Positions 4,352-18,372 of a DNA stretch of 64,000 nucleotides are shown here, piece after piece; position 1 is the stretch's first letter; the number at the start of each line of letters is the position of its first letter. The position numbers were made by a program, and so were the translations under genes. The stretch is from Eubacterium sp. (lineage in GTDB: Bacteria; Bacillota; Clostridia; Lachnospirales; Lachnospiraceae), in NCBI GenBank assembly GCA_017433295.1, contig JAFRHL010000034.1, positions 124,001 to 188,000 of the forward strand, read 5' to 3'. The notes under the pieces were generated by a model. That model did no database searches and was not told the DNA's origin. It worked only from the letters and a program-made list of their open reading frames with translations.

Positions 4352-5131
4352 ATGAAAAAACTTGTGATGATTATGATGCTGGCAGCGGCAGTCTGCCTGG
4401 CAGGATGCGGAGGCAATGACTCCGAATCCAAAGCTCCGGCTTCCGGGGGACCCGACACGGAGAAATCCGAGGGGGTGATGACCCATGAGGAGTTCATGAA
4501 TGCTTTAGTGGGTGATGAGGTCGTTATAGAAGCCTATGTACAGGCTCACCAGGCATGGTGGGATGACAACGGCCAGGGGAAGGTCACCATTTATCTGCAG
4601 GATGCTGACGGCGGTTACTTTGCCTATGAAGTAAAGGCTGACAAAGAGGAGGCCGAAGCCCTTCAACCGGGCACCAAGGTCAAGGTGACCGGTGTCAAGA
4701 CGGAATGGAGCGGAGAAATCGAGATAGCAGAAGATGAAATGGGTAACGGTCCCACCGTTGAGACGGAAGAGGGCAGTTATATTGCAGAAGCCCTTGATGT
4801 GACAGACCTGCTGGGGACAGACGATCTGATCAGCCACCAGAATGAATTCGTCGCTTTTAAAGGGATGACCGTGGAAGCAAACGATGACGGGTCCGCCTTT
4901 TTATATAATTATGACGGCTCGGGCTCCCAGGGAGATGATCTTTACTTCAAGGCATCGGTGGGAGGCCAGACCTACACCTTTACCGTCGAGTCTTACCTGA
5001 CCGGGTCTGATACAGATGTATATAAAGCAGTGGAGGCATTAAAGGCCGGCGACGTGATTGATATGGAAGGCTTCCTCTACTGGTATGAAGGAGCCAATCC
5101 CCATATTACATCCGTTAAGACATCAGAGTAA
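4352..5131 (+). CDS. Hypothetical lipoprotein, possible OB-fold repeats
   Basis: About 259 residues. Lipobox CLAGC near residue 20 predicts export and lipid anchoring. The mature part is acidic and seems to hold two similar beta-rich halves, each with a pattern reminiscent of OB-fold modules: first VVIEAYVQAHQ...KVTIYLQDADGGYFAYEVK...GTKVKVTGV, then FVAFKGMTVE...AFLYNYDG...YTFTVESYL...GDVIDMEGFLYW. No catalytic motif was recognised. SD GGAGGAG precedes the ATG. It lies 25 bases after the sugar-binding gene and could be co-transcribed. Function unknown. Confidence 0.7.
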   Translation: MKKLVMIMMLAAAVCLAGCGGNDSESKAPASGGPDTEKSEGVMTHEEFMNALVGDEVVIEAYVQAHQAWWDDNGQGKVTIYLQDADGGYFAYEVKADKEEAEALQPGTKVKVTGVKTEWSGEIEIAEDEMGNGPTVETEEGSYIAEALDVTDLLGTDDLISHQNEFVAFKGMTVEANDDGSAFLYNYDGSGSQGDDLYFKASVGGQTYTFTVESYLTGSDTDVYKAVEALKAGDVIDMEGFLYWYEGANPHITSVKTSE

Positions 5132-5482: not shown

Positions 5483-6238
5483 ATGCTTAAGATAGCGATT
5501 TACGGCAAAGGAGGCATCGGTAAGTCCACTGTGACCGGCAACCTGGCAGCTGCCTTTGCGAAACTTGGAAAAAGGGTGATACAGATCGGCTGCGATCCCA
5601 AGGCGGATTCCACCATCAACCTGCTGGGAGGGCATCCGCCGACAGCCGTTATGGATTACATGAGGGAACACGATGACGATCCCGACTCCATAGAAGATAT
5701 CTCCGGTATTGGTTATGGAGGGGTCCTCTGCATAGAGACGGGGGGACCGACTCCGGGACTGGGCTGTGCCGGAAGAGGGATCATAGCCACCTTTGCTCTC
5801 CTGGAGGACCTGGAGCTTTTTGAGAAATTTCAGCCGGATGTCGTTCTCTATGATGTACTGGGCGATGTGGTCTGCGGCGGCTTTGCGGCACCCATCAGGG
5901 AGGGCTATGCAAAGAAAGTCCTGATCGTTACATCCGGGGAGAAGATGGCTTTATATGCTGCCGGTAACATCAATAATGCAGTGAAGAATTTTGAGGACCG
6001 CAGCTATGCCAGGGTTTACGGGATCGTTCTTAATCACAGGAATGTTGAGAGGGAAAGGGAAAAGGTGGAGGCCTTTGCAGAGAAGGCAGGTCTTGATATC
6101 GTGGGTGAGATCGTACGCAGCGATGATATTATCTGGTGTGAAGATCATGGTCAGACCGTGGTGGAGGGCCGCCCCGATTCGGAAGCGGCGAAAGCATTTA
6201 TGGCTCTGGCCCGAAAACTGCTTTCTTCAGAGGAATGA
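5483..6238 (+). CDS. NifH/BchL/CfbC-like Fe protein 1
   Basis: Dimeric ATPase of the nitrogenase reductase family, expected to carry a [4Fe-4S] cluster between its two subunits and pass electrons to a D/K-like partner. Visible: P-loop GKGGIGKST near the N-terminus, GCDPKADST (switch I region), and the two cluster cysteines in GLGCAGRGI and DVVCGGF. At 251 residues it is shorter than NifH (about 290). First gene of the cluster; its stop region overlaps an alternative start of the D-like gene. A second copy lies at 13986. Partner and substrate are unknown; this is not by itself evidence of nitrogen fixation. Confidence 0.9.
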
Positions 6239-6270
6239 TTTTTATTGACCCGAAAGGAAAAAGACAAAGT

Positions 6271-7617
6271 ATGAAAGAGAGTCAGAATAAGACCGGCAGC
6301 CGGAACAGTTACTATATCTCAGCAAGAGACCTGGCAGAGCTTGGAAAGGACCGGATCCCGGAGGAACTGGTTTCGGGCAGGCATCTCATCTACAGTTCTC
6401 CGGCCACCCTTGCATTCAATTCTCCCGGGGCCCAGGGCTTTGGGGTTAAAAGAGCGGCCCTGGCCATTCCGGGTTCTGTCATGCTTCTGGTGGCGCCGGG
6501 CTGCTGCGGAAGAAATACAACCATTTTAAGTGAGATACCGGGTTATGAAAATCGTTTTTTCTATCTGCTGATGGATGAGACGGATATTGTCACCGGACGT
6601 CATTTAAAGAAGATACCGGAGGCTGTCTGTGAGGTTTATGACACCCTTAAAGAAAAACCCTCCGTGGTGATGATCTGTATAACCTGCGTGGATGCCCTCT
6701 TGGGGACGGATATGGAGAGAGTATGCCGGAAGGCATCGAATAAGGCAGGTATTCCCGTGCTGCCCTGTTATATGTATGCCCTTACCCGGGAGGGCCGCAA
6801 GCCTCCTATGGTACATGTACGCCAGTCCATTTATTCTCTTCTTGAGAAGAGGAAGCGCAGGAGAAGCAGTGTGAACATCCTTGGTTTTTTTGCTCCTCTG
6901 ATTTCTGACTGTGAGCTTTATGACCTGCTGGGCCGGGCCGGTGTAAAAAAGATCAGGGAGATCGCAGGCTGTCAGAGCTTTAATGAGTATATGGAAATGG
7001 CAGAAGCGAACTTTAATCTGGTTTTAAATCCTGAGGCCCGCTATGCCGCGGAGGACATCAGAAAAAGACTGGGGATCCCTTCGGTGGAACTGACAAGACT
7101 TTATCAGCTTGATAAGATCCGGAAACAGTACAGTCTTTTTGCGGCGGCCCTGGGGATAGAGATTGATGACAGCATGTATTATCAGGAAGCCCTGGAAGCG
7201 GTGGACTGTTTCAAAAAGAAATATCCGGAACTTACCTTTTCCATCGGAGAAGGATGTAATGCCAATGCCTTTGAGCTGTCGCTGGCTTTGCTGGGATATG
7301 GATTTTCCGTGGCGGAGATCTTTGCCGATCCCCAGCCGGGAGATTTTGTTTATATATCTAAAATTGCAGATGTGAGTCCTGGCACAAGGATCTATTCCAA
7401 CCTGGAACCCACCATGCTTTATTATGACTGCTCAGAGGTTCCTTCGGATATCACGGTGGGTAAGGATGCCGCCTACTATCATCCCGGCACGACTAATCTT
7501 ATGTGGTCGGATGATATCCAGCCCTTTGGATACAGGGGACTGATTCATTTCTTTAAAGAATGTGAAAAAGTATTAGAGACGGAAGTATGTTACCGGGAGG
7601 GAGACAAGTTATTATGA
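6271..7617 (+). CDS. Nitrogenase-like component 1 protein, NifD-like (copy 1)
   Basis: Catalytic-component-like subunit, assigned from position and from the NifD-like cysteine layout. Cysteines sit in APGCCGRN (about residues 78-79) and CITCVDALLGTD (136 and 139), matching the second and third P-cluster cysteines of NifD; the first is replaced by glycine in the NSPGAQG segment. The segment matching NifD Cys275 (LVLNPEARYAAEDI) has no cysteine, and no match to the cofactor histidine was found. It is about 448 residues, close to NifD in size. ATG 6235 overlaps the upstream stop, but its SD touches the start codon; ATG 6271 with AAGGAAAAAG is preferred. Family fairly sure, function unknown. Confidence 0.82.
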   Translation: MKESQNKTGSRNSYYISARDLAELGKDRIPEELVSGRHLIYSSPATLAFNSPGAQGFGVKRAALAIPGSVMLLVAPGCCGRNTTILSEIPGYENRFFYLLMDETDIVTGRHLKKIPEAVCEVYDTLKEKPSVVMICITCVDALLGTDMERVCRKASNKAGIPVLPCYMYALTREGRKPPMVHVRQSIYSLLEKRKRRRSSVNILGFFAPLISDCELYDLLGRAGVKKIREIAGCQSFNEYMEMAEANFNLVLNPEARYAAEDIRKRLGIPSVELTRLYQLDKIRKQYSLFAAALGIEIDDSMYYQEALEAVDCFKKKYPELTFSIGEGCNANAFELSLALLGYGFSVAEIFADPQPGDFVYISKIADVSPGTRIYSNLEPTMLYYDCSEVPSDITVGKDAAYYHPGTTNLMWSDDIQPFGYRGLIHFFKECEKVLETEVCYREGDKLL

Positions 7618-8777
7618 AAGGTCTTAGAAAGTATATCGCTCCCTTTGCCCCGGACCAGTCCGGAGCCGCAGCGGTTTTTTGCCAACTGGGAGCCATGGTG
7701 ATCATTCTGGATGCGGGGGGCTGTGCCGGCAACATCTGCGGTTTCGATGAGCCCAGATGGTTTGACAGCAGAAGTGCCATCTTCTCTGCCGGACTGAGAG
7801 ACATGGATGCCATTCTCGGCCGGGATGACCGGCTGGTGGAGAAAGTTGTAAAAGCGTGCCGCAGACTGTCCTGCCACTTTATTGTGGTGATAGGGACTCC
7901 GGTTCCCTCGGTAATCGCCACGGATTACCGGGCTCTTACCAGGATGCTGGAAAAAAAGACCGGCTTGCCGGTGATAACTATAGATACCAATGGCATGGAG
8001 CTTTATGATGAGGGGGCCAGGAAGGCATACACAGCAGTTTTTAAAAAGTTTTCCCCGAAAGAAGCAGAAGGCGTCCGGACAGGTATCCCGGTGGAGAATG
8101 ATCAGGCGGCAGCTTGTCCGGCGGGGACAGCCGGCATATTGGGTGCTACTCCGCTGGATGTGACACTGGCTTCCGGCAGTTTTGCGGGGAAGCGGACTGA
8201 CAAAGATGAAACTGAAAATGATTATGGGGACTGGCTGAAGGACTATTACCGGGGCAGAGGATACCGGACGGTGCTGCCCTACGGGATGGGGACCGGTCTT
8301 TTGGAGATAAAGGCTGCAGGCAGGGTGGATGAGAATATTGTGATTTCCCCTTCGGCCCTTGAGGCGGCCAGATATCTTCAGAAGGTTTTCGGCACCCCCT
8401 ATAGGACCGATTATCCTCTGGAAACTCTGCCGGGATGGGAGAACATTTTAAAGGAAATTCCCCATATGAGAGATAAGAAGATACTGATAGTTCATCAGCA
8501 GGTCCTGGCGGATACGCTCAGGAGACGTATTTTGGAGGAATTATCAGATGATGTCGGCAGGGACAGGGATATTACAGTGGCTTCCTGGTTTAACCTTGAT
8601 AAGGAGCTGGCAGCTCCCGGCGATGTCAGGCTCCGGGAAGAGGACCAGTGGATAGAACTGGTCCGGGACAATTCTTATGATTATATAATCGGGGACAGGC
8701 TCTTTCTTGCCGCGATAAAAGGTTTTGAAGGAGAGTGGATCGATCTTGACCATTTTGCTGTTTCCGGAAAACGATAA
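7614..8777 (+). CDS. Nitrogenase-like component 1 protein, NifK-like (copy 1)
   Basis: Partner of the preceding D-like subunit; the start overlaps its stop (ATGA) and the SD CGGGAGGGAG lies about 10 bases upstream, so ATG 7614 is favoured over 7587. About 387 residues, well short of NifK. An Asp (about 14, APDQSG) and a Cys (about 37, GGCAGN) fall where NifK has P-cluster cysteines; the third position is in GTPVPSV without Cys. The motif DEPRWFD after the cysteine is shared with copy 2. With the D subunit this could hold one [4Fe-4S] cluster, as in the dark-operative protochlorophyllide reductase, rather than a P-cluster (inference). Confidence 0.8.
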   Translation: MKGLRKYIAPFAPDQSGAAAVFCQLGAMVIILDAGGCAGNICGFDEPRWFDSRSAIFSAGLRDMDAILGRDDRLVEKVVKACRRLSCHFIVVIGTPVPSVIATDYRALTRMLEKKTGLPVITIDTNGMELYDEGARKAYTAVFKKFSPKEAEGVRTGIPVENDQAAACPAGTAGILGATPLDVTLASGSFAGKRTDKDETENDYGDWLKDYYRGRGYRTVLPYGMGTGLLEIKAAGRVDENIVISPSALEAARYLQKVFGTPYRTDYPLETLPGWENILKEIPHMRDKKILIVHQQVLADTLRRRILEELSDDVGRDRDITVASWFNLDKELAAPGDVRLREEDQWIELVRDNSYDYIIGDRLFLAAIKGFEGEWIDLDHFAVSGKR

Positions 8778-8797
8778 AAGTATTGCAGGATTAATCA

Positions 8798-11287
8798 ATG
8801 ACAGAACAATTATGGCGTATCAGAGTCTTCGGCATTGTTCAGGGAGTAGGATTCCGCCCTACAGTCAGCCGGCATGCGGATGCATGCCATATTCATGGTA
8901 ATGTCAGTAATGTGGGTCCCTATGTGGAGATTTGGGCAAAGGGCCTTGAGGAAGATCTGAGACATTTTATCGAAAAAATTGAATATGAACCGCCCAGGAG
9001 AGCGGCGATACTGAAGCTGACCGTGGAAGAAAAGGATCCGGGCAGGTTTTCCTTCTCTGATTTTTCCATCGTGGAAAGCGAGAAACGCCAGGGGGACATT
9101 TTTGTATCGCCGGACATAGCCATCTGTCCTGAATGCAAAAAGGAATTGTATGATCCGGCTGACCGCAGGTATCTGCATCCCTTTATCAACTGTACCTGCT
9201 GCGGACCCCGGCTTACCATTCTTGACGGTATGCCCTATGACCGGATAAGGACCAGCATGAAGGATTTTCCCATGTGCCCTGAATGTGAGTTTGAGTATAC
9301 CCATGCTTCCACCCGCCGCTATGATGCCCAGCCGGTCTGCTGTAATGACTGCGGTCCGGAAGTCTACCTGCTGGACAGGGAAGAGAGGGGACCGGAGGCC
9401 ATACGGGCTGCCAGGCAGATGATAAAGGATGGGGGCATTGTGGGTATCAAGGGAATTGGCGGATTTCATCTCTGCTGTGATGCAGCCAGTGAGCAGGCGG
9501 TATCCCTCCTGAGAAAACGCAAGAAGCGCCCGGTAAAACCCTTTGCGGTTATGATGAAGGATAAGGATGTTGTTCGCAGGGAATGCGATTTGTCTTTCTG
9601 TCCGCCGGACCTGATGGAGATCCTGGACGGGCACCAGAAGCCGATCCTGCTGCTTCCAAAGAGCGAGAGAGGGAGTCTGGCTGCTTCTGTGGCCCCCGGG
9701 AATCCCAGGGTAGGGGTGATGCTGCCCTATGCGCCCATTCATCTTTTGCTTTTTGATTATCAGGATGAGCTTAAGCTGCCGGATTGCCTGGTCATGACCA
9801 GTGCCAATACCTCAGGAGCACCCATTTGCAGGGACGACGAGGATGCCAGAAGGGAACTTTCGGGTCTGTGTGACCTGATCCTGTCCCATAACCGGCTGAT
9901 CCGGCTCAGGGCCGATGATACGGTAATGGATATTTTTGAAGGCAGGCCTTATATGATCCGCCGGTCCCGGGGATATGCTCCCCTGCCGGTAATGACCTCG
10001 GAGGAACTGACCGGGCAGGTGCTGGCCATCGGCGGTGAACTGAAGAATACCTTCTGTATAGGCAAAAACCAGTTATATTATCCCTCCCCCTATATCGGAG
10101 ATATGGAGGATGCCAGGACGGTCCGGGCTTTAAAGGAATCCGTAAAAAGGATGCAGGAATTGCTGGAGGCTTCCCCTTCCATTGTGGCCTGTGATCTGCA
10201 TCCCGGCTATAACACCACAGCGGTGGCCCGGGAGCTGGCAGGAGCCGGTGGAAGGGATGATCCGGGTGATCTGGAGGATCTGGGTAATCCGGATAAGCCG
10301 GGCCTGACCCTGTATCCCGTCCAGCACCATTATGCCCATATTCTTTCCTGTATGGCGGAGAATGACTATTCGGGACAGGTGATCGGGGTTTCCTTTGACG
10401 GGACCGGATACGGGACAGACGGCACCATCTGGGGAGGAGAATTCCTGCTGGCCGATTACGAAGGATTTAAAAGGCCGGGATCCATCCGGCCGTTTTTACA
10501 CGTGGGCGGGGATACCGCCTCCCGGCAGGGCTGGCGCATCGCAGTCTCGCTGATATACAGTCTCTATGGAAGGGAGAAGGGAAGCCGGATCATTGACCGG
10601 CTGAAGGTCTGCGACGGGAAAACCGCCGGAGTTCTTATGACCATGGCGGCCCGGCGGATCAATACGGTGAAATCAACCAGTGCAGGCCGGATCTTTGATG
10701 CTGTCAGTGCCATTTTGGGCATTTGCAGGGAGAACAGCTATGAAGGCGAGGCCTCCACATTCCTCCAGTTTGCTGCCGAGAGGTATGAAGCCCGGATGTC
10801 TGTTCTGGACAAGGGGAAAGATATTGTTGATTGTTTTTCTGTAAATATCCGGAAGGAATCTGGTTTATCCGGAGAACAAACCGGATTTGAGTGGATTGAC
10901 ACTGATTTACCAGGGGAAGGAGAAAGCTGCTTTCAGCTTAAAACGGATGACCTGGTGAAATATATTATCGAAAAGACACTGGAGGGTGCCGATGCGGAAG
11001 AGATGGCATATGAATTCCATAGTATGCTGGCATCGGCCATTGTTCAGGGCTGTATTTATTTAAGAAATCAGGCAAAACTGAATACCGTGGCCCTGAGCGG
11101 GGGTGTCTGGCAGAATCAGCTGCTGCTGAGGCTTACCACAGGGCTTCTTAAACAGGCAGGCTTTCAGGTCCTGACCCACCAGCTCATTCCGCCTAATGAT
11201 GGGGGAATCTGTCTGGGACAGGCCGCAGCGGCCATGCATTATATTAACCGAAAGAATTGTACTGCTGTTAACGGAACAGATAAATAA
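8798..11287 (+). CDS. hypF: Carbamoyltransferase HypF
   Basis: First enzyme of cyanide-ligand synthesis in [NiFe]-hydrogenase maturation: it transfers carbamoyl from carbamoyl phosphate to the C-terminal cysteine of HypE. Domains in order: acylphosphatase (VQGVGFRP, residues about 5-95), two zinc fingers with CxxC-x18-CxxC spacing (C110/113/132/135 and C160/163/182/185), YrdC-like nucleotide domain (about 200-385, KRPVKPFAVMMKD), and Kae1-like domain with HHYAH and SFDGTGYG...WGGEF. At 829 residues it is slightly long, partly from a Gly/Asp-rich stretch just before HHYAH. It lies between the first nitrogenase-like set and hypC. Confidence 0.97.
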   Translation: MTEQLWRIRVFGIVQGVGFRPTVSRHADACHIHGNVSNVGPYVEIWAKGLEEDLRHFIEKIEYEPPRRAAILKLTVEEKDPGRFSFSDFSIVESEKRQGDIFVSPDIAICPECKKELYDPADRRYLHPFINCTCCGPRLTILDGMPYDRIRTSMKDFPMCPECEFEYTHASTRRYDAQPVCCNDCGPEVYLLDREERGPEAIRAARQMIKDGGIVGIKGIGGFHLCCDAASEQAVSLLRKRKKRPVKPFAVMMKDKDVVRRECDLSFCPPDLMEILDGHQKPILLLPKSERGSLAASVAPGNPRVGVMLPYAPIHLLLFDYQDELKLPDCLVMTSANTSGAPICRDDEDARRELSGLCDLILSHNRLIRLRADDTVMDIFEGRPYMIRRSRGYAPLPVMTSEELTGQVLAIGGELKNTFCIGKNQLYYPSPYIGDMEDARTVRALKESVKRMQELLEASPSIVACDLHPGYNTTAVARELAGAGGRDDPGDLEDLGNPDKPGLTLYPVQHHYAHILSCMAENDYSGQVIGVSFDGTGYGTDGTIWGGEFLLADYEGFKRPGSIRPFLHVGGDTASRQGWRIAVSLIYSLYGREKGSRIIDRLKVCDGKTAGVLMTMAARRINTVKSTSAGRIFDAVSAILGICRENSYEGEASTFLQFAAERYEARMSVLDKGKDIVDCFSVNIRKESGLSGEQTGFEWIDTDLPGEGESCFQLKTDDLVKYIIEKTLEGADAEEMAYEFHSMLASAIVQGCIYLRNQAKLNTVALSGGVWQNQLLLRLTTGLLKQAGFQVLTHQLIPPNDGGICLGQAAAAMHYINRKNCTAVNGTDK

Positions 11288-11328
11288 GAGAAAATGCTGA
11301 TCATATCAGCCAGAAAGGAATGAGAAAG

Positions 11329-11529
11329 ATGTGTGTTGGACTTCCGGCAAAAATTATGACCATGAAAGACGGTGCTGCCATTGTGGACGCGTCCGGCGCC
11401 AGAAGGGAGATCTCCACGGAGCTTCTTACAGATCTGGAGCCGGGAGACTATGTGATGGTCCATGCGGGGATCGCCATCGCAAAGATCACGGATGAGGAAG
11501 AGGATGATTTTCTGGAGGATCTTTTATGA
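11329..11529 (+). CDS. hypC: Hydrogenase maturation chaperone HypC
   Basis: Small chaperone that carries the Fe(CN)2CO unit with HypD. The family needs Cys directly after the initiator Met; starting at ATG 11329 gives MCVGLPAK, and AGAAAGGA (11312-11319) is correctly spaced for it, whereas ATG 11320 touches the SD. 66 residues with an acidic C-terminus, slightly short for the family. The stop overlaps hypD (ATGA). The usual partner is a hydrogenase large subunit precursor, and none is seen here. Confidence 0.95.
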   Translation: MCVGLPAKIMTMKDGAAIVDASGARREISTELLTDLEPGDYVMVHAGIAIAKITDEEEDDFLEDLL

Positions 11530-12578
11530 GTAAAGGGAACAGTAAACTGGATGCCGCAAAAAGAATAATACAGGAATATGACGGCCCCCCTGTGAGGATC
11601 ATGGAAGTGTGCGGTACCCATACCCACGAGATCTTCCGACTGGGTGTCCGGAAACTGCTGCCGGATAAAGTACACCTGATCTCAGGACCCGGCTGTCCGG
11701 TCTGTGTGACACCGGTGGATTATATCGATGAAGCAATATGGCTGGCCCTTACGGAAAAGGTGACCATCTGCACCTTCGGAGACCTGGTGAGGGTTCCCGG
11801 AACAAAAGACAGCCTGGCAGGGGCCAGGGCCAGGGGCGCAAAGATCCATGTGGTATACTCACCGGCAGATGCACTGAAGTATGCCGCTGATCATCCCCTT
11901 GAGGAGGTGGTATTTCTGTCGGTGGGCTTTGAGACCACCACACCGGCGGTCTGTCTCACCATGAAGGACGCCCAAAATGAGAATATATACAACTACAGTG
12001 TGCTGACGGCCAATAAAACCATGCCGAAAGCCTATGAAGCCATGAAGGACAGCACAGATGTTTATATTTATCCGGGACATGTGAATGCCATCATGGGGAC
12101 CGGGATCTGCCGCAGGCTCCTTTTAGAGGGTGTCAGCGGAGTCGTTACAGGTTTTGGCCCGGGAGACATCCTTAGAGCCTTTGCCGTGATACTGAAAAAG
12201 TTCCCGGAAGGGAAACCCTTCTTTGTGAATGCCTACCCCAGAGTGGTCAGCGATGAGGGAAGTGCTGCAGCTCAGGAACTGATGCGGGAGTGGATGGAAC
12301 CCTGTGATGCGGAATGGAGAGGGATCGGTGTCATGAAGGACTCCGGCCTCAGGATCAGAGAATGCTTCAGTCAGTTTGATGCCCGGATCAGATACCATAT
12401 TCCTGCCATGAAAGGCCGGTCTAATCCGGCCTGCCGGTGCGGGGAAGTCCTGCAGGGAAAATGTAAACCGACGGACTGTAAGGTTTTCGGAAAGGCCTGT
12501 ACGCCCCTGCATCCCGTGGGAGCCTGCATGGTTTCCGGGGAAGGAGCCTGTTCAGCCTTTTATCAGTATGGAACCTGA
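11526..12578 (+). CDS. hypD: Fe(CN)2CO assembly protein HypD
   Basis: Scaffold iron-sulfur protein on which Fe(CN)2CO is built with HypC and HypE. 350 residues, normal length. Visible: MEVCGTHTHEIFR, GPGCPVCVTP, FETTTPAV, the YPGHVNAIMG segment, and the C-terminal cysteine-rich [4Fe-4S] region (CRCGEVLQGKCKPTDC followed by ACTPLHPVGACMVS). All hallmark cysteines appear present. Coupled to hypC by a four-base overlap. Confidence 0.97.
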   Translation: MSKGNSKLDAAKRIIQEYDGPPVRIMEVCGTHTHEIFRLGVRKLLPDKVHLISGPGCPVCVTPVDYIDEAIWLALTEKVTICTFGDLVRVPGTKDSLAGARARGAKIHVVYSPADALKYAADHPLEEVVFLSVGFETTTPAVCLTMKDAQNENIYNYSVLTANKTMPKAYEAMKDSTDVYIYPGHVNAIMGTGICRRLLLEGVSGVVTGFGPGDILRAFAVILKKFPEGKPFFVNAYPRVVSDEGSAAAQELMREWMEPCDAEWRGIGVMKDSGLRIRECFSQFDARIRYHIPAMKGRSNPACRCGEVLQGKCKPTDCKVFGKACTPLHPVGACMVSGEGACSAFYQYGT

Positions 12579-12645
12579 TGTTCCGGCTGCAACCGACTGG
12601 ACAAGTCAGTCAGATATAAACTTCAGTTTATAGAGGAGAAAACAT

Positions 12646-13650
12646 ATGGACAAGAATGTAACACTGGCCCACGGAGCCGGTGGAAAACAGACATCCTGGC
12701 TTATCGACCAGGTATTTAAGAAATATTTCGCAAATCCTCAGTTTACCAGCGACGATGCAGCGGTCCTTGAACTGGATAAGGGGAGGCTGGCATTTACAAC
12801 GGACGGCTTTATCGTCTCTCCGGCTGAGTTTCCGGGAGGCAATATCGGAAAGCTTTCTATCTGTGGAACGGTAAATGACCTGGCCTGTATGGGGGCCAAA
12901 CCCCTGTACCTTACCTGTGCCTTCGTGATCGAAGAGGGTTTCCCTTTGGACCGGCTTGAAAAGATTGCCGCTTCCATGGCAGACACTGCAGCCGAGGCAG
13001 GAGTAAGTATTGTTGCGGGGGATACCAAGGTGGCAGGCAAAGGCCAGGTGGACGGAGTATTTATTACCACCACAGGGATCGGAAGGATCCGGGAGGGGGT
13101 AAGGACCTCCGGCGCTGCCGCGAAACCGGGAGACCAGGTCATCGTAAGCGGTGATATCGGAAGACATGGATGTACGATCCTTCTGGAAAGGGAGGATTTT
13201 GGAATAGACGCAAAGGTAAGCAGCGATTGCGCGCCCCTGTGGCAGGCCGTTTCGGATATTCTCTCAGTAACGGAGGATGTCCATGTGATCCGGGATGCCA
13301 CCAGGGGAGGTGTCGGCACTGTTCTGTATGAAATAGCCGGGCAAAGCAATGTTGGGATAAAACTGGACTCGGAGGCTGTTCCGGTGCAGGATGAAGTGAA
13401 GGGAGTCTGCGGTATGCTGGGCCTGGAGCCCCTGTATCTGGCCTGTGAAGGACGGCTGGTGATTGTGGTGCCAAAGGAGCATGCCCGGGCTGTGCTGGAT
13501 GTCCTCCACCGGGGGAAATATACAGAAAACGCGGCGGTGATCGGTGAGATCACGGAAGATATGCCGGGCAGGGTGATCATGACAACGGAGATCGGGGCAG
13601 AGACCCTGCTGCCGGAACCGAGGGGGGAACTGCTGCCCAGGATATGCTGA
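12646..13650 (+). CDS. hypE: Hydrogenase maturation protein HypE
   Basis: ATP-dependent dehydratase that turns the carbamoyl group on its own C-terminal cysteine into thiocyanate and donates cyanide to HypC-HypD. 334 residues of the PurM-like fold: AHGAGGK near the start, TDGFIVSP, GTVNDLACMGA, GDTKV, DATRGGVGT. The protein ends in PRIC, the essential C-terminal cysteine, so it should be functional. SD GAGGAGAAAA before ATG. A 67-base gap after hypD shows no clear terminator, so it is probably in the same operon. Confidence 0.97.
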   Translation: MDKNVTLAHGAGGKQTSWLIDQVFKKYFANPQFTSDDAAVLELDKGRLAFTTDGFIVSPAEFPGGNIGKLSICGTVNDLACMGAKPLYLTCAFVIEEGFPLDRLEKIAASMADTAAEAGVSIVAGDTKVAGKGQVDGVFITTTGIGRIREGVRTSGAAAKPGDQVIVSGDIGRHGCTILLEREDFGIDAKVSSDCAPLWQAVSDILSVTEDVHVIRDATRGGVGTVLYEIAGQSNVGIKLDSEAVPVQDEVKGVCGMLGLEPLYLACEGRLVIVVPKEHARAVLDVLHRGKYTENAAVIGEITEDMPGRVIMTTEIGAETLLPEPRGELLPRIC

Positions 13651-13696
13651 CAAACAGGAAATGAGTTAGAAAGAGAATTATAAGGAGCAAAAGAGA

Positions 13697-13942
13697 ATGG
13701 ATACCAGAGTAGCCATTTTATCGGTGATCGTTGAAAATACTGACAGTACCGAGGAATTAAACAGTATCATTCACGAGTATTCCCGTTTTGTTGTGGGCCG
13801 GATGGGGATCCCCTACCATAAACGCAATATTAATATCATCAGTCTGGTGGTGGATGCTCCCCAGAATGAGATCAGTTCTCTTTCGGGAAGGATCGGAAGG
13901 CTTGCGGGAGTGACGGCAAAGGCAGCCTATGCGAAACTGTGA
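13697..13942 (+). CDS. TM1266-type ACT-like domain protein (putative hydrogenase-system regulator family)
   Basis: 81 residues. The pattern RVAILSVIVEN...LNSIIHEYSRFVVGRMGIPY....INIISLVVDAP..EISSLSGRIGRLAGVTAKAAY resembles the TM1266 family, a small NikR/ACT-like fold usually encoded beside [FeFe]-hydrogenase genes and named a putative iron-only hydrogenase system regulator. It has no DNA-binding helix of its own. Placed between hypE and the second NifH-like gene, it may sense a metal or small molecule for the cluster (inference). Confidence 0.78.
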   Translation: MDTRVAILSVIVENTDSTEELNSIIHEYSRFVVGRMGIPYHKRNINIISLVVDAPQNEISSLSGRIGRLAGVTAKAAYAKL

Positions 13943-13985
13943 TGAAAAGACTGCCGGAACAGGATAAGGGGGACGCGGGAATAAT

Positions 13986-14759
13986 ATGTTAAAAATAGCG
14001 GTATACGGAAAGGGTGGTATCGGAAAGTCCACAACCATTGCAAATGTCGCTGCCGTACTGGCCATGAAGGGCTATACCGTGATGCAGATCGGCTGTGATC
14101 CAAAAGCAGACTCCACGGTGCTTCTGCGTCATCGTGAGCCGGTGACAACGGTGCTGGACCTGATACGGGAAAGAAAAAATGATTTTGAACTTGAAGATAT
14201 GGTAAAGAAGGGCTTTGCCGGAGTGCTTTGTGTAGAAGCGGGGGGACCTGCCCCCGGAATGGGCTGTGCCGGCAGGGGGATCATCGCGGCCCTGGAGAAG
14301 CTTCAGGAAAAAGGTGCCTATGATTTTTACCGGCCGGATATCATTTTATATGATGTTCTGGGGGATGTGGTCTGCGGCGGTTTTTCCATGCCCATGAGGA
14401 AAGGATACGCAGATAAAGTTTTTATTGTAACCTCCGGGGAGAATATGTCCATCCATGCCGCAGCCAACATTGCCATGGCCGTGGAGAATTTTAAAAACCG
14501 GGGATACGCTTCCCTGGGCGGTCTGATATTAAACAGAAGAAATGTGAAAAGAGAAGAGGAGAAGGTACAGGAGCTGGCGGATGATTTTCATACGGGGATC
14601 GTCTCCGCTTTAAGCCGCAGCCCCCTGGTGGAGGATGCCGAGGAAATGGGCCAGTGTGTCATGGAAGCTTTTCCTGACAGTGAAATGGCAGAGGAATACC
14701 GGATCCTTGCCGCGGAGATCCTTAAAGTCTGCAAAAAGGAAGCGGACGATGGAGCCTGA
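13986..14759 (+). CDS. NifH/BchL/CfbC-like Fe protein 2
   Basis: Second nitrogenase-reductase-like ATPase, 257 residues. Same hallmarks as copy 1: [18 protein letters not shown], and cluster cysteines in GMGCAGRGI and DVVCGGF; it is clearly a paralogue, with near-identical N-terminal motifs. Differences concentrate after residue 50 and at the C-terminus (it ends KKEADDGA), so the two probably dock on different D/K partners. The D-like gene begins 30 bases after its stop. Confidence 0.9.
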   Translation: MLKIAVYGKGGIGKSTTIANVAAVLAMKGYTVMQIGCDPKADSTVLLRHREPVTTVLDLIRERKNDFELEDMVKKGFAGVLCVEAGGPAPGMGCAGRGIIAALEKLQEKGAYDFYRPDIILYDVLGDVVCGGFSMPMRKGYADKVFIVTSGENMSIHAAANIAMAVENFKNRGYASLGGLILNRRNVKREEEKVQELADDFHTGIVSALSRSPLVEDAEEMGQCVMEAFPDSEMAEEYRILAAEILKVCKKEADDGA

Positions 14760-14789
14760 TAGACAGGACTACAGAAAGGTACTGAAATT

Positions 14790-16178
14790 TTGCTGAAAAT
14801 GATTCACGGCAGGCAGGAAGAACGGCTGCCTGCCGATAAGGAAATGATATATATAAAGGATGCTGCCTGGCCGGTTCCTTTTAAAGCAGGACTGGAATAC
14901 AACAGCCCCTGCCATGGCCCCTGGAATATCGTCCATATCGGGATGGCAGTTCCCGGCTCCCACCAGATCTATGTCTGCGGCGCCAACTGCAACCGGGGCG
15001 TGGTGCTTACAGCTGCGGAGATGAAGGCCTCCCACAGATACTCCACCCTGGCCCTTTTTGAAGAAGACCTGACAGGCGCGGATATGGAGAGTCTGGTCAT
15101 CGACGGGGTGACGGAAATTATTGAGAAGCTTCCGGAAAAACCGCCCCTGGTCTTTGTGTTTACGGTCTGCGTCCACCGGTTTATGGGGCTGGATCTTTCT
15201 TATATCTACAGTGTCCTGCGGGAACGCTTTTCTGACATTATCTTTGTGGAAAGCGCCATGGAACCCATATCCCAGAAGGGTGGGCTGACTCCGGAGCAGA
15301 GGCTTCGGGATGGAATGCATTCCTTTCTCACAGCCCGGAGGAGCGGCCGTGGAGACCAGAACCAAAATTGTAATGAACCGGGAAAGAAACAGATCAGCAT
15401 TATCGGCGGTGACTTTCCCATTGAGGAAGGCAGCGAGATAAAGCTGATGATGCGTGAAGCCGGCATCCTTATCAGGGAAAGCTCCTCCTGCCAAAGCTTT
15501 GAAGAATACCTGTCCATGGGTGACAGCAGCCTTTTTCTCTGCTGTTATCCGACGGCAGTCTATGGGGTGGAGAAGCTTGCGAAAAGACTGGGAAAGCCCT
15601 GGCTTTATCTGCCGGACAGCTTTTCTTATGATGAGATCCGTCAGCAGATAAAGCGGCTGGAAGGTCAGCTGCAAAGCCTTACAGGAAAGAAATGCACCGT
15701 GGATCACGAGACCCTGGTACTGGAATGTGAACAGGCTTTAGAGGAGACCCGAAATCTGATCGGTGAGACCGGGATTGCCATAGACGCTTCGGCTGTACCC
15801 AGATATCTGGGCCTGGCCAGACTCCTCCTGACCCATGGCTTCCATGTGATCAGATTATACGGCGATGTCTTTTCCCCGGAAGAAAAAGAGGACTACCACT
15901 GGCTGATCCGGCACGCTCCTGATCTGACCATCTGTCCCACCATACATCCGGGTATGAGAGTATTCCCCAGAGGGCAGGAGGAGAAGGTCCTGGCCATCGG
16001 CCAGAAAGCAGCCTATTTTCACCAGACTCCTTATTTTGTAAATATCGTTCAGGGGGCAGGCCTGCATGGCTATGACGGCATAAAAAAGCTGGCAAAGATG
16101 ATGCGGGAAGCTTTCCTGGCAAAGAAGGACACCAGAGACCTGGTGGGCCGGAAAGGATTGGGGTGTGAGACATACTGA
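14790..16178 (+). CDS. Nitrogenase-like component 1 protein, NifD-like (copy 2)
   Basis: Paralogue of the gene at 6271, 462 residues. TTG 14790 has AGAAAGGT at good spacing; ATG 14799 is the alternative. Cysteines: C41 (NSPCHG), C63 and C67 (VCGANC), C127 (TVCVHRFMGLD). C41, C67 and C127 match the three P-cluster cysteines of NifD, with the first two 26 residues apart as in NifD. C251-C252 (LCCYPTAVYG) aligns with the HCYRS segment of NifD, so the cofactor cysteine (NifD Cys275) appears kept, but the position of NifD His442 (near NIVQGAGLHGYDG) is not His. It may hold a cluster or cofactor unlike FeMo-co. Confidence 0.82.
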   Translation: MLKMIHGRQEERLPADKEMIYIKDAAWPVPFKAGLEYNSPCHGPWNIVHIGMAVPGSHQIYVCGANCNRGVVLTAAEMKASHRYSTLALFEEDLTGADMESLVIDGVTEIIEKLPEKPPLVFVFTVCVHRFMGLDLSYIYSVLRERFSDIIFVESAMEPISQKGGLTPEQRLRDGMHSFLTARRSGRGDQNQNCNEPGKKQISIIGGDFPIEEGSEIKLMMREAGILIRESSSCQSFEEYLSMGDSSLFLCCYPTAVYGVEKLAKRLGKPWLYLPDSFSYDEIRQQIKRLEGQLQSLTGKKCTVDHETLVLECEQALEETRNLIGETGIAIDASAVPRYLGLARLLLTHGFHVIRLYGDVFSPEEKEDYHWLIRHAPDLTICPTIHPGMRVFPRGQEEKVLAIGQKAAYFHQTPYFVNIVQGAGLHGYDGIKKLAKMMREAFLAKKDTRDLVGRKGLGCETY

Positions 16179-17464
16179 TGAAAAATACTTCTGTGATCCT
16201 ATCAACATATACGGCAGATGTTTCCGGAGTATGCTCTGCTCTGTATGAACTGGGGGGCATGGTGGTGATCCATGATCCCTCCGGCTGCAATTCCACCTAC
16301 AATACCCATGATGAGCCCAGATGGTACGACCAGGACAGCCTGATCTTTATTTCAGGGCTTTCTGAGATCGATGCCATTATGGGAAGTGATGATAAACTGA
16401 TTGATGATATCACCAGGGCCGCAGCCCGGCTTAAGCCCCGCTTTATCGCCCTGGTCCGTACCCCTGTCCCCTTAATGACAGGGGTGGATTTTGAGGGAAT
16501 CCGGGATATACTGGCAGAAGAAACCGGACTTCCCGTCTACTATTTTCCCACCAGCGGAATGCGTTCCTATATTCAGGGAGTCAATATGGCCCTGGCTGCC
16601 GTGGCCCGGCATATGGTGGCTGCTCCCGGGCAGAGACCGCAGGAAAATGGTCAGAATACGGATAAAATGAAAAAAACGGATAAAAACAGAAGAGTAAACC
16701 TTTTAGGGGTGACCCCCCTGGATTTTTCGGTGAACACGACTCTTTCCTCAATAAAAAAGCTTTTGTCGGCCCATAGATTTGAGACCCTGGCCTGCCTGGC
16801 CATGGGAAGCAGTCCGGAGGAGATCTCCCGGGCCGGGGAGGCGGATGTCAATCTGGTGGTTTCCTCGGCCGGGTTTGACGCAGCCTGTATTTTAAACCAA
16901 AGGTTCGGGACCCCTTACGTTGTGGGTCTTCCCGTGGGAGGTTTTGCTGATTATCTGATGGAGCTTCTGGAGGAGAGCATTATAGATAGAAATAACCGGA
17001 TAGGGTGGCGGAGCAGAAATACCGGTCATGAGAAGCGGAATGCCACAGACTACGGGAACAATGTTATCAGCACAAGACCTGAGATCGATGGCCCGGAGAT
17101 TTCTTATTCTGGGAAAAGAATCTGCCTCATTGGGGAGGCCGTGGCTGTCCGGTCCCTCCGGGAGGCCCTGCGGCTGGACCGGGCACTGGAAACCAAAGCC
17201 GTCTGCTGTCTGGAGACACCCGCCCCTCTCATGGATGAAGAAACAGTTTTTCTTGGCAGTGAAGAGGAAGTGCAGGAGGAGCTTGCCACGGCAGATGTGG
17301 TTGCGGCAGACCCCATGTACAGACCCGTCTGCCCGGAAGGGGTACAGTTTATTGATTTCCCCCATGAAGCATTTTCGGGCCGGATCTACAGAAATATCAT
17401 TCCGGATTTGACGAAAGCAGGGGATATCATATATAATGACCTGAGTAAGAAAGAAAAAATGTAA
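16178..17464 (+). CDS. Nitrogenase-like component 1 protein, NifK-like (copy 2)
   Basis: Paralogue of the gene at 7614, 428 residues; its ATG shares one base with the stop of the D-like gene. Conserved with copy 1 at the same positions: Asp14 (TADVSG), Cys37 (PSGCNS) and DEPRWYD, then SGL.EIDAIMG.DDKL. A Lys/Asn-rich linker around residue 155-172 and another polar insertion near 275-305 separate the domains. The pairing with the preceding D-like subunit is inferred from the overlap. Substrate unknown. Confidence 0.8.
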   Translation: MKNTSVILSTYTADVSGVCSALYELGGMVVIHDPSGCNSTYNTHDEPRWYDQDSLIFISGLSEIDAIMGSDDKLIDDITRAAARLKPRFIALVRTPVPLMTGVDFEGIRDILAEETGLPVYYFPTSGMRSYIQGVNMALAAVARHMVAAPGQRPQENGQNTDKMKKTDKNRRVNLLGVTPLDFSVNTTLSSIKKLLSAHRFETLACLAMGSSPEEISRAGEADVNLVVSSAGFDAACILNQRFGTPYVVGLPVGGFADYLMELLEESIIDRNNRIGWRSRNTGHEKRNATDYGNNVISTRPEIDGPEISYSGKRICLIGEAVAVRSLREALRLDRALETKAVCCLETPAPLMDEETVFLGSEEEVQEELATADVVAADPMYRPVCPEGVQFIDFPHEAFSGRIYRNIIPDLTKAGDIIYNDLSKKEKM

Positions 17465-17490: not shown

Positions 17491-18372
17491 ATGGAAGACC
17501 TGCAAACCGGACTGGATCTGAATAAAGGACTGGATCTGCAAACCGGACGGTGTCTGGAAATAGAAAAAAGTATCCGCAGCAGAAGGTTTCACAAAAAGCT
17601 CTTTTCACGATTTGCAAAGGCCATCAATACCTATGATCTTCTGAAAGAGAATGATAAGGTGGCCGTCTGCATATCCGGGGGAAAGGATTCCATGCTGATG
17701 GCCAAGCTTTTCCAGGAAATCAGGCGCCATAATAAGTTTCATTTTGATCTGGTTTTTCTGGTGATGGATCCGGGTTACAGTGAGGCCAACCGCCGGATGA
17801 TAGAGCACAATGCAGAGATCCTGGGAATACCCGTCACTATTTTTGAATCAGACATCTTTGAATCGGTCACCCATGTGGATAAGTCACCCTGTTATCTTTG
17901 TGCCAGGATGAGAAGAGGCTATCTTTACAGTCATGCGAAAGCCCTGGGAGCCAATAAGATCGCCCTGGGCCACCATTATGATGATGTGATCGAGACCATC
18001 CTGATGGGAATGCTTTACGGAGCCCAGGTCCAGACCATGATGCCCAAACTCCACAGCACCAATTTTCCCGGGATGGAGCTGATCCGGCCCATGTACCTGA
18101 TCAGGGAAGAGGATATCATCAACTGGGCAGAGGCCAATGATCTGCATTTCCTCCGGTGCGCCTGCCGCTTTACTGAATCATGCTCCGCTTACCGGCCGGA
18201 TGGCAGTTCAGCCTCAAAGCGGATGGAGATCAAGAAACTGATCGCAGATCTGAAAGAAGTGAATCCCTTTGTGGAGGGAAACATTTTCAAGAGTGTGGAG
18301 AACGTGAATCTGAACACTGTTGTTGCTTATAAAAAAGATGGCATCAGACATCATTTTCTGGAAGATTATTAA
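17491..18372 (+). CDS. TtcA/TilS-family PP-loop ATPase (tRNA thiolation-like)
   Basis: Adenylating enzyme of the family that makes 2-thiocytidine in tRNA. PP-loop SGGKDSM, the CxxC pair in CYLCARMRRG, ALGHHYDD, and later cysteines in RCACRFTESC match TtcA-like proteins. 293 residues. AAAAAAGGAG gives a strong SD for ATG 17491. The first 20 codons contain a short repeat (LDLQTG twice). It starts 26 bases after the last nitrogenase-like gene, so it could be part of that transcript, but TtcA-like genes are also common housekeeping genes. tRNA modification is the simplest assignment. Confidence 0.85.
   Translation: MEDLQTGLDLNKGLDLQTGRCLEIEKSIRSRRFHKKLFSRFAKAINTYDLLKENDKVAVCISGGKDSMLMAKLFQEIRRHNKFHFDLVFLVMDPGYSEANRRMIEHNAEILGIPVTIFESDIFESVTHVDKSPCYLCARMRRGYLYSHAKALGANKIALGHHYDDVIETILMGMLYGAQVQTMMPKLHSTNFPGMELIRPMYLIREEDIINWAEANDLHFLRCACRFTESCSAYRPDGSSASKRMEIKKLIADLKEVNPFVEGNIFKSVENVNLNTVVAYKKDGIRHHFLEDY
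17500..17548 (+). repeat. Short direct repeat in the N-terminal coding region
   Basis: CTGCAAACCGGAC occurs at 17500-17512 and again at 17536-17548, with GGACTGGATCTG also doubled between them. It encodes the repeated LDLQTG segment of the PP-loop protein. Confidence 0.8.

Follow-up and report, generated by a model that had tools for sequence, protein, structure and literature searches.

A clostridial gene cluster that looks like an undescribed route of H-cluster assembly, with Hyp proteins and nitrogenase-like complexes in place of HydG

Why should a genome in which no [NiFe]-hydrogenase is found keep the genes which build the iron unit of this enzyme, and why should these genes lie between two sets of nitrogenase-like genes? 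The question is raised by a gene cluster of Eubacterium sp. (assembly GCA_017433295.1, contig JAFRHL010000034.1, positions 124,001-188,000 of the forward strand; this stretch of 64,000 nt is called the window). Positions 5483-17464 of the window contain eleven co-directional genes on the + strand, in the order H1-D1-K1-hypF-C-D-E-TM1266-H2-D2-K2, where H, D and K code for NifH-, NifD/NifE- and NifK/NifN-like proteins. An earlier sequence-only reading counted nine genes, while both its own list and the sequence give eleven. The genes it named are present where it placed them, all on the + strand, as profile matches and open reading frames (ORFs) confirm. The cluster looks like a previously undescribed route for the assembly of the H-cluster of [FeFe]-hydrogenases, in which parts taken from two other metal-cofactor systems replace hydG.

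The genome (2.9 Mb, 91.3% complete) has three [FeFe]-hydrogenase large subunits (loci L087, L088 and L089), HydE (575 bits) and HydF (551 bits). HydG has not been found: no protein of this genome passes the cut-off of 312, and the sole match to the profile (93.6 bits) turns out to be HydE. HydG is a tyrosine-cleaving enzyme to which the CO and CN of the H-cluster are ascribed (PMC3105041), and it normally supplies a Fe(CO)2CN unit (PMC9431212). The sequence-only reading had named a [NiFe]-hydrogenase accounting for hypCDEF as a finding that would speak against it; no large subunit of this kind appears in the genome. Service of the Hyp proteins to a [NiFe]-hydrogenase of their own genome is refuted here, unless the enzyme lies in the missing 9%. 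Neither hypA nor hypB is found within 5483-17464; the remaining genome was not searched for either.

The same class was sampled evenly: 263 genomes, our own included (requested completeness at least 90%), have been searched for D2, HydG and HydF. D2 scores over 500 bits in 11 genomes, HydG passes its cut-off in 171 and HydF in 178. HydF is present and HydG absent in each of the 11 genomes with D2. Among genomes with HydF, D2 is found in 11 of the 14 without HydG and in none of the 164 with HydG (Fisher p 3.5e-15, a value which is overstated because the sampled genomes are related). The 11 genomes are spread over 7 genera and 6 families, and 10 of them are 97-100% complete, so that the explanation by a HydG missed through incompleteness has been rejected for this sample. 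The genus g56 includes seven genomes with HydF: in five (G050, G119, G138, G173 and G252) D1 and D2 occur without HydG, while the other two (G074 and G207) have HydG and no D2, with HydG, HydE and HydF within about 4 kb of one another. Comparative genomics shows that H2-D2-K2 stands in for hydG where HydE, HydF and [FeFe]-hydrogenase are kept, and this module very probably replaces HydG functionally. The replacement is strongly supported by these genomic data.

When genome contigs were scanned with K2, 344 relatives were confirmed, and the best 80 of these 344 loci have been studied. Beside H2-D2-K2, hyp genes are found at 20 of the 80 loci and a FecD/FecE-type (FecBCD-type) ATP-binding cassette (ABC) importer at 44; no locus shows both, and neither is in view at 16. 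The module has HydE in view at 28 loci and HydF at 15, many loci being short. H1, D1 or K1 can also be seen at most hyp-type loci (17 of 20); the remaining ones (L006, L009 and L012) start at hypE, at a contig end. Seen from the other side, hyp genes are in view at 17 of the 18 loci with H1, D1 or K1, and at the last one (L072) the contig ends. The architecture of the window adds H1-D1-K1 and a dedicated HypFCDE to H2-D2-K2. According to the sequence-only reading, homologous clusters which regularly lack hyp genes would speak against its link between Hyp and the H-D-K sets. Such clusters are found for the second set, which stands beside an importer without hyp genes at the 44 loci just mentioned, and not for the first.

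Homologues at the 20 hyp-type loci are 40-82% identical to the window proteins and appear in the same or a re-ordered run. Because of this recurrence, the cluster is not an effect of chance or of assembly. The class sample contains the run in three families (f1, f37 and f39), named clostridia have it too, and its recurrence in so many genomes rules out a chance neighbourhood. The runs of relatives include hydF, at two loci also hydE, and at one an [FeFe]-hydrogenase gene. In G138 (L090), the genes for a pyridine-nucleotide oxidoreductase, an [FeFe]-hydrogenase, H1, D1, K1, HypF, HypC, HypD, HypE, TM1266, D2, K2, HydF and HydE follow each other in one direction, with about 15 kb from hydrogenase to HydE. 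The run is identical from H1 to HydF in G173, G119, G252 and G050. HypC and HypD of L092 (G119) and TM1266 of L093 (G252) are unlabelled because a longer ORF on the opposite strand was kept; the HypD of G119 is confirmed by the genome search. G180 (L096) has a single run TM1266-HydF-HydE-H2D2K2-H1D1K1-Hyp. None of the g56 clusters (L090, L091, L092, L093 and L094) contains an H2 gene, so that the two D/K complexes may share a single NifH-like protein in this genus.

For HydE, HydF and TM1266, the scores at example loci lie above the curated cut-offs. The importer ATPase matches Pfam ABC_tran and the binding protein Peripla_BP_2; the permease is BtuC/FecC-like, below both cut-offs. The ATPase carries a C-terminal TM1266-like domain at 35 of the 44 importer loci, according to BLAST, and Pfam confirms it in L085 (5802-6881; PF21699, 63 bits). 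This fusion suggests that TM1266 could sense or gate the imported compound.

A wider set of 64 genomes allows us to compare both architectures. It includes 14 genomes of the class sample and 50 genomes represented among the 80 loci, of which 29 are of importer type and 21 carry hyp genes or H1D1K1. There are 29 rows of H1D1K1-Hyp type and 32 of importer type; the remaining three genomes are G140, G240 and G243, and G280 duplicates G180. HydE is found in all rows of both types (29 of 29 and 32 of 32, 61 of 61 rows with H2D2K2), and an [FeFe]-hydrogenase large subunit in 27 of 29 and 31 of 32 (58 of 61). HypD is present in 28 of the 29 H1D1K1-Hyp rows versus 1 of the 32 importer rows, so the sequence-only reading was right in linking Hyp and the first H-D-K set as one unit. 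The sole importer row with HypD, G288, bears its own H1-D1-K1-HypFCDE set apart from H2D2K2 (L121). HydG passes its cut-off in one H1D1K1-Hyp row and three importer rows. A [NiFe] large subunit match is found in 8 of the 29 H1D1K1-Hyp rows and in none of the 32 importer rows. The genes of the cluster are listed in Table 1.

Table 1. Genes of the cluster in the window, with the matches on which their names are based.
Gene product	Position	Strand	Basis
H1, NifH-like Fe protein (ATP-driven reductase component)	5483..6238	+	PF00142 (Fer4_NifH) 285 bits
D1, NifD/NifE-like subunit of Hyp-linked nitrogenase-like complex	6235..7617	+	PF00148 (Oxidored_nitro) 99.9 bits
K1, NifK/NifN-like partner of D1	7614..8777	+	PF00148 62.1 bits; start 7614 preferred, ORF opens 7587
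HypF carbamoyltransferase	8798..11287	+	TIGR00143 703.6 bits, cut-off 466; five Pfam HypF-type domains
HypC chaperone, 66 amino acids, Cys2 present	11329..11529	+	identified from sequence alone, start MCVGLP
HypD scaffold protein with [4Fe-4S] cysteines	11526..12578	+	TIGR00075 383.7 bits, cut-off 193
HypE, C-terminal PRIC (ends ...GELLPRIC)	12646..13650	+	TIGR02124 430.6 bits, cut-off 252
TM1266-family small protein, putative regulator of iron-only hydrogenase system	13697..13942	+	TIGR03959 109.6 bits, cut-off 60.8
H2, second NifH-like Fe protein	13986..14759	+	PF00142 295.8 bits
D2, NifD/NifE-like subunit of second complex	14790..16178	+	PF00148 41.8 bits
K2, NifK/NifN-like partner of D2	16178..17464	+	PF00148 106.9 bits

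The genes are tightly packed. From one gene to the next, gaps are -4, -31, 20, 42, -4, 67, 46, 43, 30 and -1 bases when the K1 ORF is taken from 7587; the maximum spacing is 67 bases, other ends overlap or are closer. The protein found at the HypC position in the relative L090 is PF01455. A gene of the TtcA-like tRNA thiolation family (17491-18372; 197 bits, cut-off 272) begins 26 bases after K2. It has been rejected as a member of the cluster, since it adjoins K2 in L006 alone among the 80 loci. An ORF which looks lipoprotein-like by eye (4352-5131) lies between an upstream ABC-transporter-like run and H1.

Do the Hyp proteins of the cluster form a set of their own? A tree of HypD (38 rows, 36 of them different) separates 26 D1-linked copies from 12 NiFe-linked copies by a branch with 98/99 support, and six H1D1K1-Hyp genomes have two HypD genes. 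Nine cysteines of HypD (Cys29, 57, 60, 303, 305, 318, 325, 334 and 342) are kept in 25 of 25 D1-linked and 12 of 12 NiFe-linked rows. HypE ends in PRIC in all 29 D1-linked rows, the window included, and HypC starts with MC (Cys2) in 25 of 25; each of these HypC, HypD and HypE sets holds one or two duplicate genomes, and HypF is judged by its domains alone. Four extra HypD cysteines (82, 143, 195 and 260) are seen in 20-24 of the 25 D1-linked rows and are absent from all 12 NiFe-linked rows. C. ljungdahlii has a [NiFe] large subunit, and its single HypD is the copy in this cluster; within 8 kb around its [NiFe] genes (L122) there is no match to HypC, D, E or F. As the [NiFe] enzyme of this species has no other HypD and no Hyp genes nearby, the Hyp proteins of the cluster would appear to make genuine Fe(CN)2CO still.

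The hypCDEF genes might simply serve a [NiFe]-hydrogenase and stand beside the nitrogenase-like genes by chance, an explanation which we find hardly credible. A full-length [NiFe] large subunit does occur in 4 of the 21 H1D1K1-Hyp genomes derived from loci (C. ljungdahlii, C. drakei, C. carboxidivorans and C. muellerianum), and the single HypD of C. ljungdahlii may serve both purposes. On the other hand, none of the 8 H1D1K1-Hyp genomes of the class sample, ours included, has a [NiFe] large subunit match, the HypD copies form a separate group, and the run recurs in several families. Six genomes of the class have HypD without D1: all of them have a [NiFe]-type match, three of them full-length. 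When HypD, D1 and [NiFe] are tabulated together over 80 genomes, each HypD found is accompanied by D1K1, by a [NiFe]-type hydrogenase or by the two together.

The nitrogenase-like proteins stay below the cut-offs of the well-known families. Both H proteins fall short of the nifH equivalog (297 and 315 bits, cut-off 394), of CfbC (300 and 311 bits, cut-off 402) and of BchL (201 and 187 bits, cut-off 345). D1 scores 31 bits against nifD (cut-off 654), and D1, K1 and K2 score 69, 42 and 61 bits against nifE (cut-off 505); D2 has no match among the NCBIfam models. In no case does an H, D or K protein reach the cut-off of the nitrogenase, NifEN, protochlorophyllide, chlorophyllide or F430 models of NCBIfam that it matches. 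Identity with a true nitrogenase, NifEN, DPOR or CfbCD has been discarded, all of them being far below these cut-offs. The nearest solved relative of H1 is NifH 1cp2; among solved structures, NifE, BchB and nitrogenase alpha chains come nearest to the D and K proteins. Kinship is clearer within the cluster than with any solved protein of the nitrogenase family: D1 and D2 align nearly full length (profile E 1e-42, 24% identity), as do K1 and K2 (E 1e-67, 30% identity).

Conserved cysteines are concentrated in the first part of these proteins. D1 has invariant Cys90, 91, 148, 151 and 164 in 14 sequences and none beyond 164; D2 has invariant Cys63, 67 and 127 in 30 sequences and none beyond 127, with Cys234 and Cys459 nearly invariant. 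K1 keeps Cys46, Cys51 and a DEPRW motif in 17 sequences, and K2 keeps Cys37 and DEPRW in 22 (the window is included in all these sets). The Cys...DEPRW motif is common to K1 and K2, and of five relatives which are more distant, four have it and the fifth (L127) has DEPRF. In NifD, Cys275 is the conserved cysteine which binds the cofactor. By analogy with NifEN and DPOR, the conserved cysteines of D and K may bind an Fe-S cluster where the two subunits meet.

In a tree of K proteins, K1 forms one clade and K2 another (both 100/100). The K2 clade mixes importer and Hyp types, with 4-5 changes between them required by the tree, of which supported branches force 1-2. The two deepest K2 rows are of importer type, the second one with weak support (83/42). 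A related H-D-K-FecB-FecD-FecE set, with no hyd genes in the fetched stretch, is found in G063, G117 and G125, partially in G231, while G131 has H-D-K only (L124:5533-11731, L125:8274-14537, L126:8368-14553 and, partial, L127:367-4164). Four of these five genomes have HydG and HydF, G125 has neither. Since the related set occurs in genomes with HydG, the pair formed by H-D-K and an importer is not tied to HydG loss. With importer types deepest in the K2 tree and related H-D-K-importer sets outside it, the importer form looks like the older one, and Hyp with D1K1 would be a later, home-made supply.

The related set also bears on the idea of the sequence-only reading that the Hyp-made iron unit serves the D/K complexes themselves. 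As end enzymes they would hold a Hyp-derived iron cofactor and catalyse some reduction, and the nearby hyd genes would be merely co-regulated. In favour of this idea, the usual substrates of nitrogenase-like complexes are small molecules or tetrapyrroles, and the related set has no hyd genes nearby. It leaves unexplained the replacement of hydG (D2 in 11 of 14 versus 0 of 164 genomes) and the run with hydE, hydF and a hydrogenase gene. We consider it quite improbable. The link which the sequence-only reading drew between Hyp and the H-D-K sets stands, but the Hyp iron unit probably does not stay with the D/K complexes, and its most likely destination is the H-cluster.

In the fuller scheme, HypCDEF and the two nitrogenase-like complexes would probably replace HydG as the source of Fe, CO and CN for the H-cluster. 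HypEF is described to obtain cyanide from carbamoyl phosphate and HypCD to build Fe(CN)2CO, with ATP-dependent transfer (PMC11565642). We infer a chemistry in which the cluster starts in the same way as [NiFe]-hydrogenase maturation, with cyanide made from carbamoyl phosphate by HypE and HypF and Fe(CN)2CO assembled by HypCD. D1K1, powered with ATP through H1, would take this iron unit and reduce or remodel it, for example from Fe(II) to low-valent iron whose CO and CN ligands fit one half of an H-cluster. D2K2, powered by H2 or, in g56, by the one Fe protein of the cluster, would carry out a second reductive or assembly step leading to the HydG-type product (Fe(CO)2CN-type). HydE and HydF would then complete and deliver the [2Fe] unit. 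D1K1 is placed before D2K2 because D2K2 is common to both architectures, while Hyp with D1K1 is exchanged for an importer.

A further idea, to which we give a rather low probability, is that the H-cluster precursor might be a diffusible organometallic Fe-CO/CN compound, made by some species with HypCDEF and a nitrogenase-like complex and imported by others with the FecBCD-type system, the second nitrogenase-like complex feeding HydE and HydF in both cases. As an alternative to the fuller scheme, H2D2K2 alone could substitute for HydG, making or remodelling CO and CN from another carbon and nitrogen source, with HypFCDE-H1D1K1 and FecBCD as alternative accessory feeds (for example of iron or of a cyanide source) which would not supply both ligands. 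H2D2K2 is in fact the only part common to both architectures without HydG, and the importer-type genomes G061, G126 and G195 have neither HypD nor D1, yet they have HydE, HydF and [FeFe]-hydrogenase. Nevertheless, Hyp and D1K1 are swapped as a block for the importer, which fits two supplies of one compound better than an optional helper, and we know of no nitrogenase-like protein with Fe-S clusters only which makes CO or CN from scratch. We regard this alternative as unlikely.

Several observations weigh against the replacement of HydG by the cluster or against the scheme proposed for it. Four of the 50 genomes taken from K2 loci have HydG as well as the module; they are the only ones among the 64 in which HydG passes its cut-off, and they belong to C. 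drakei (L031), to Intestinibacter bartlettii (L055) and to the loci L068 and L074. HypD is lacking in 31 of the 32 importer-type rows, so that these genomes would need another source of CO and CN. Three of the 61 rows with H2D2K2 (G276, G282 and G291) have no [FeFe] large subunit. In the genome of the window, a simple search for the H-cluster motifs (TSCCP and MACPGGC-type) finds both in L087, one in L088 and none in L089. Matches of [NiFe] type appear in 8 of the 21 H1D1K1-Hyp genomes derived from loci, four of them full-length and four covering only the first 70 positions or so. Related H-D-K-FecBCD sets are found in genomes with HydG, without adjacent hyd genes (L124 and L125). A HydG, the radical-SAM protein CLAU_RS03260, has also been assigned to C. 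autoethanogenum, the source of a purified [FeFe]-hydrogenase (PMC9431212), so this purified enzyme is no proof of maturation without HydG. Finally, G140, G240 and G243 (3 of the 14) have HydF and neither HydG over the cut-off nor D2; G240 also lacks HydE. All three genomes, represented by the loci L105, L106 and L104, respectively, carry an [FeFe]-hydrogenase.

These last genomes indicate that a further route, or decay, exists. The cluster might then make a cofactor for an unrelated enzyme, with [FeFe]-hydrogenase matured otherwise in genomes without HydG, for instance by HydE and HydF with traces of free CO and cyanide, a possibility discussed in PMC9431212. Such an explanation has to face the association of D2 with HydG absence and the synteny with hyd genes. 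Moreover, the activation obtained in vitro with HydE and HydF alone, about 1% (PMC9431212), seems too low to live on. It appears very improbable to us, and replacement of HydG by the cluster is preferred.

How does the cluster compare with known systems? It is like HydEFG maturation in that the genome has HydE, HydF and [FeFe]-hydrogenases and the cluster a TM1266-family gene, and unlike it in that two nitrogenase-like complexes and HypCDEF take the place of HydG, the tyrosine-cleaving source of CO and CN, which is not found. It shares with HypABCDEF maturation of [NiFe]-hydrogenase HypF, C, D and E with checked catalytic residues and the expected product Fe(CN)2CO, whereas no [NiFe] target is found in the genome, its HypD falls into a group of its own, marked by extra cysteines, and hypA and hypB are absent from the cluster. 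The NifEN scaffold resembles it in its proposed scaffold-like role, NifE and nitrogenase alpha chains being the closest solved relatives of D1, K1 and K2, but D1, K1 and K2 are far below the nifE cut-off, and D1-D2 and K1-K2 align nearly full length with each other. DPOR/BchLNB and CfbCD, nitrogenase-like reductases which carry Fe-S clusters only, have in common with it a NifH-like reductase with a D/K pair, few conserved cysteines in the first half and no invariant later cysteine. They are different families by cut-off, and the neighbours in our cluster belong to H-cluster and Hyp maturation, not to tetrapyrrole synthesis. Because membership in HydEFG, in [NiFe]-Hyp and in nitrogenase each fails on a defining feature that was tested, we have classified the cluster as a new kind of cofactor-assembly system, working like the step of HydG.

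Published work contains several pieces of this puzzle. Among eight Clostridium acetogens, HydE and HydF are found in all and HydG in three, for which the authors had no straightforward explanation; they suggested an atypical radical-SAM protein as a possible HydG, and in five acetogens HypCDEF was found without detected HypA or HypB (PMC9431212). That paper has the word 'nitrogenase' once, in the title of a reference. Our result for C. drakei, where HydG is found, agrees with the same source. In C. ljungdahlii, the only match in the genome to the HydG profile at E 1e-15 or better is its HydE. In C. autoethanogenum, the HypEDCF genes are CAETHG_0368-0371 (PMC4022347). The cluster genes are not named in the passages found of a transposon study of this species (PMC9004356), and the excerpts of PMC10418091, PMC4895105 and PMC8597730 have no bearing on the link. 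No title or abstract among the matches listed connects nitrogenase-like genes with HydG loss or with Hyp; subscription journals and preprints were mostly outside the scope of this search, so an earlier description is possible.

In summary, if the proposed scheme is true, there is a new organometallic pathway which uses [NiFe]-maturation proteins and nitrogenase-like reductases and joins three metallocofactor systems that have been treated separately. It offers an answer to the puzzle of acetogens which have [FeFe]-hydrogenase, hydE and hydF and in which hydG cannot be identified (PMC9431212). A role might also be found in this way for some of the NifH-like genes of Cluster IV which abound in the human gut, although this link is conjectural: 444 of 524 human gut nifH clones, from genes and transcripts, belong to this cluster, whose function is largely unknown, and resemble Ruminococcus, Coprococcus and Eubacterium (PMC4995403). 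The H-cluster cofactor underlies hydrogen turnover in organisms of the gut, of the rumen and of gas fermentation. If its precursor were in fact diffusible, building blocks of the H-cluster would be shared or scavenged in gut and rumen communities, like vitamin B12.

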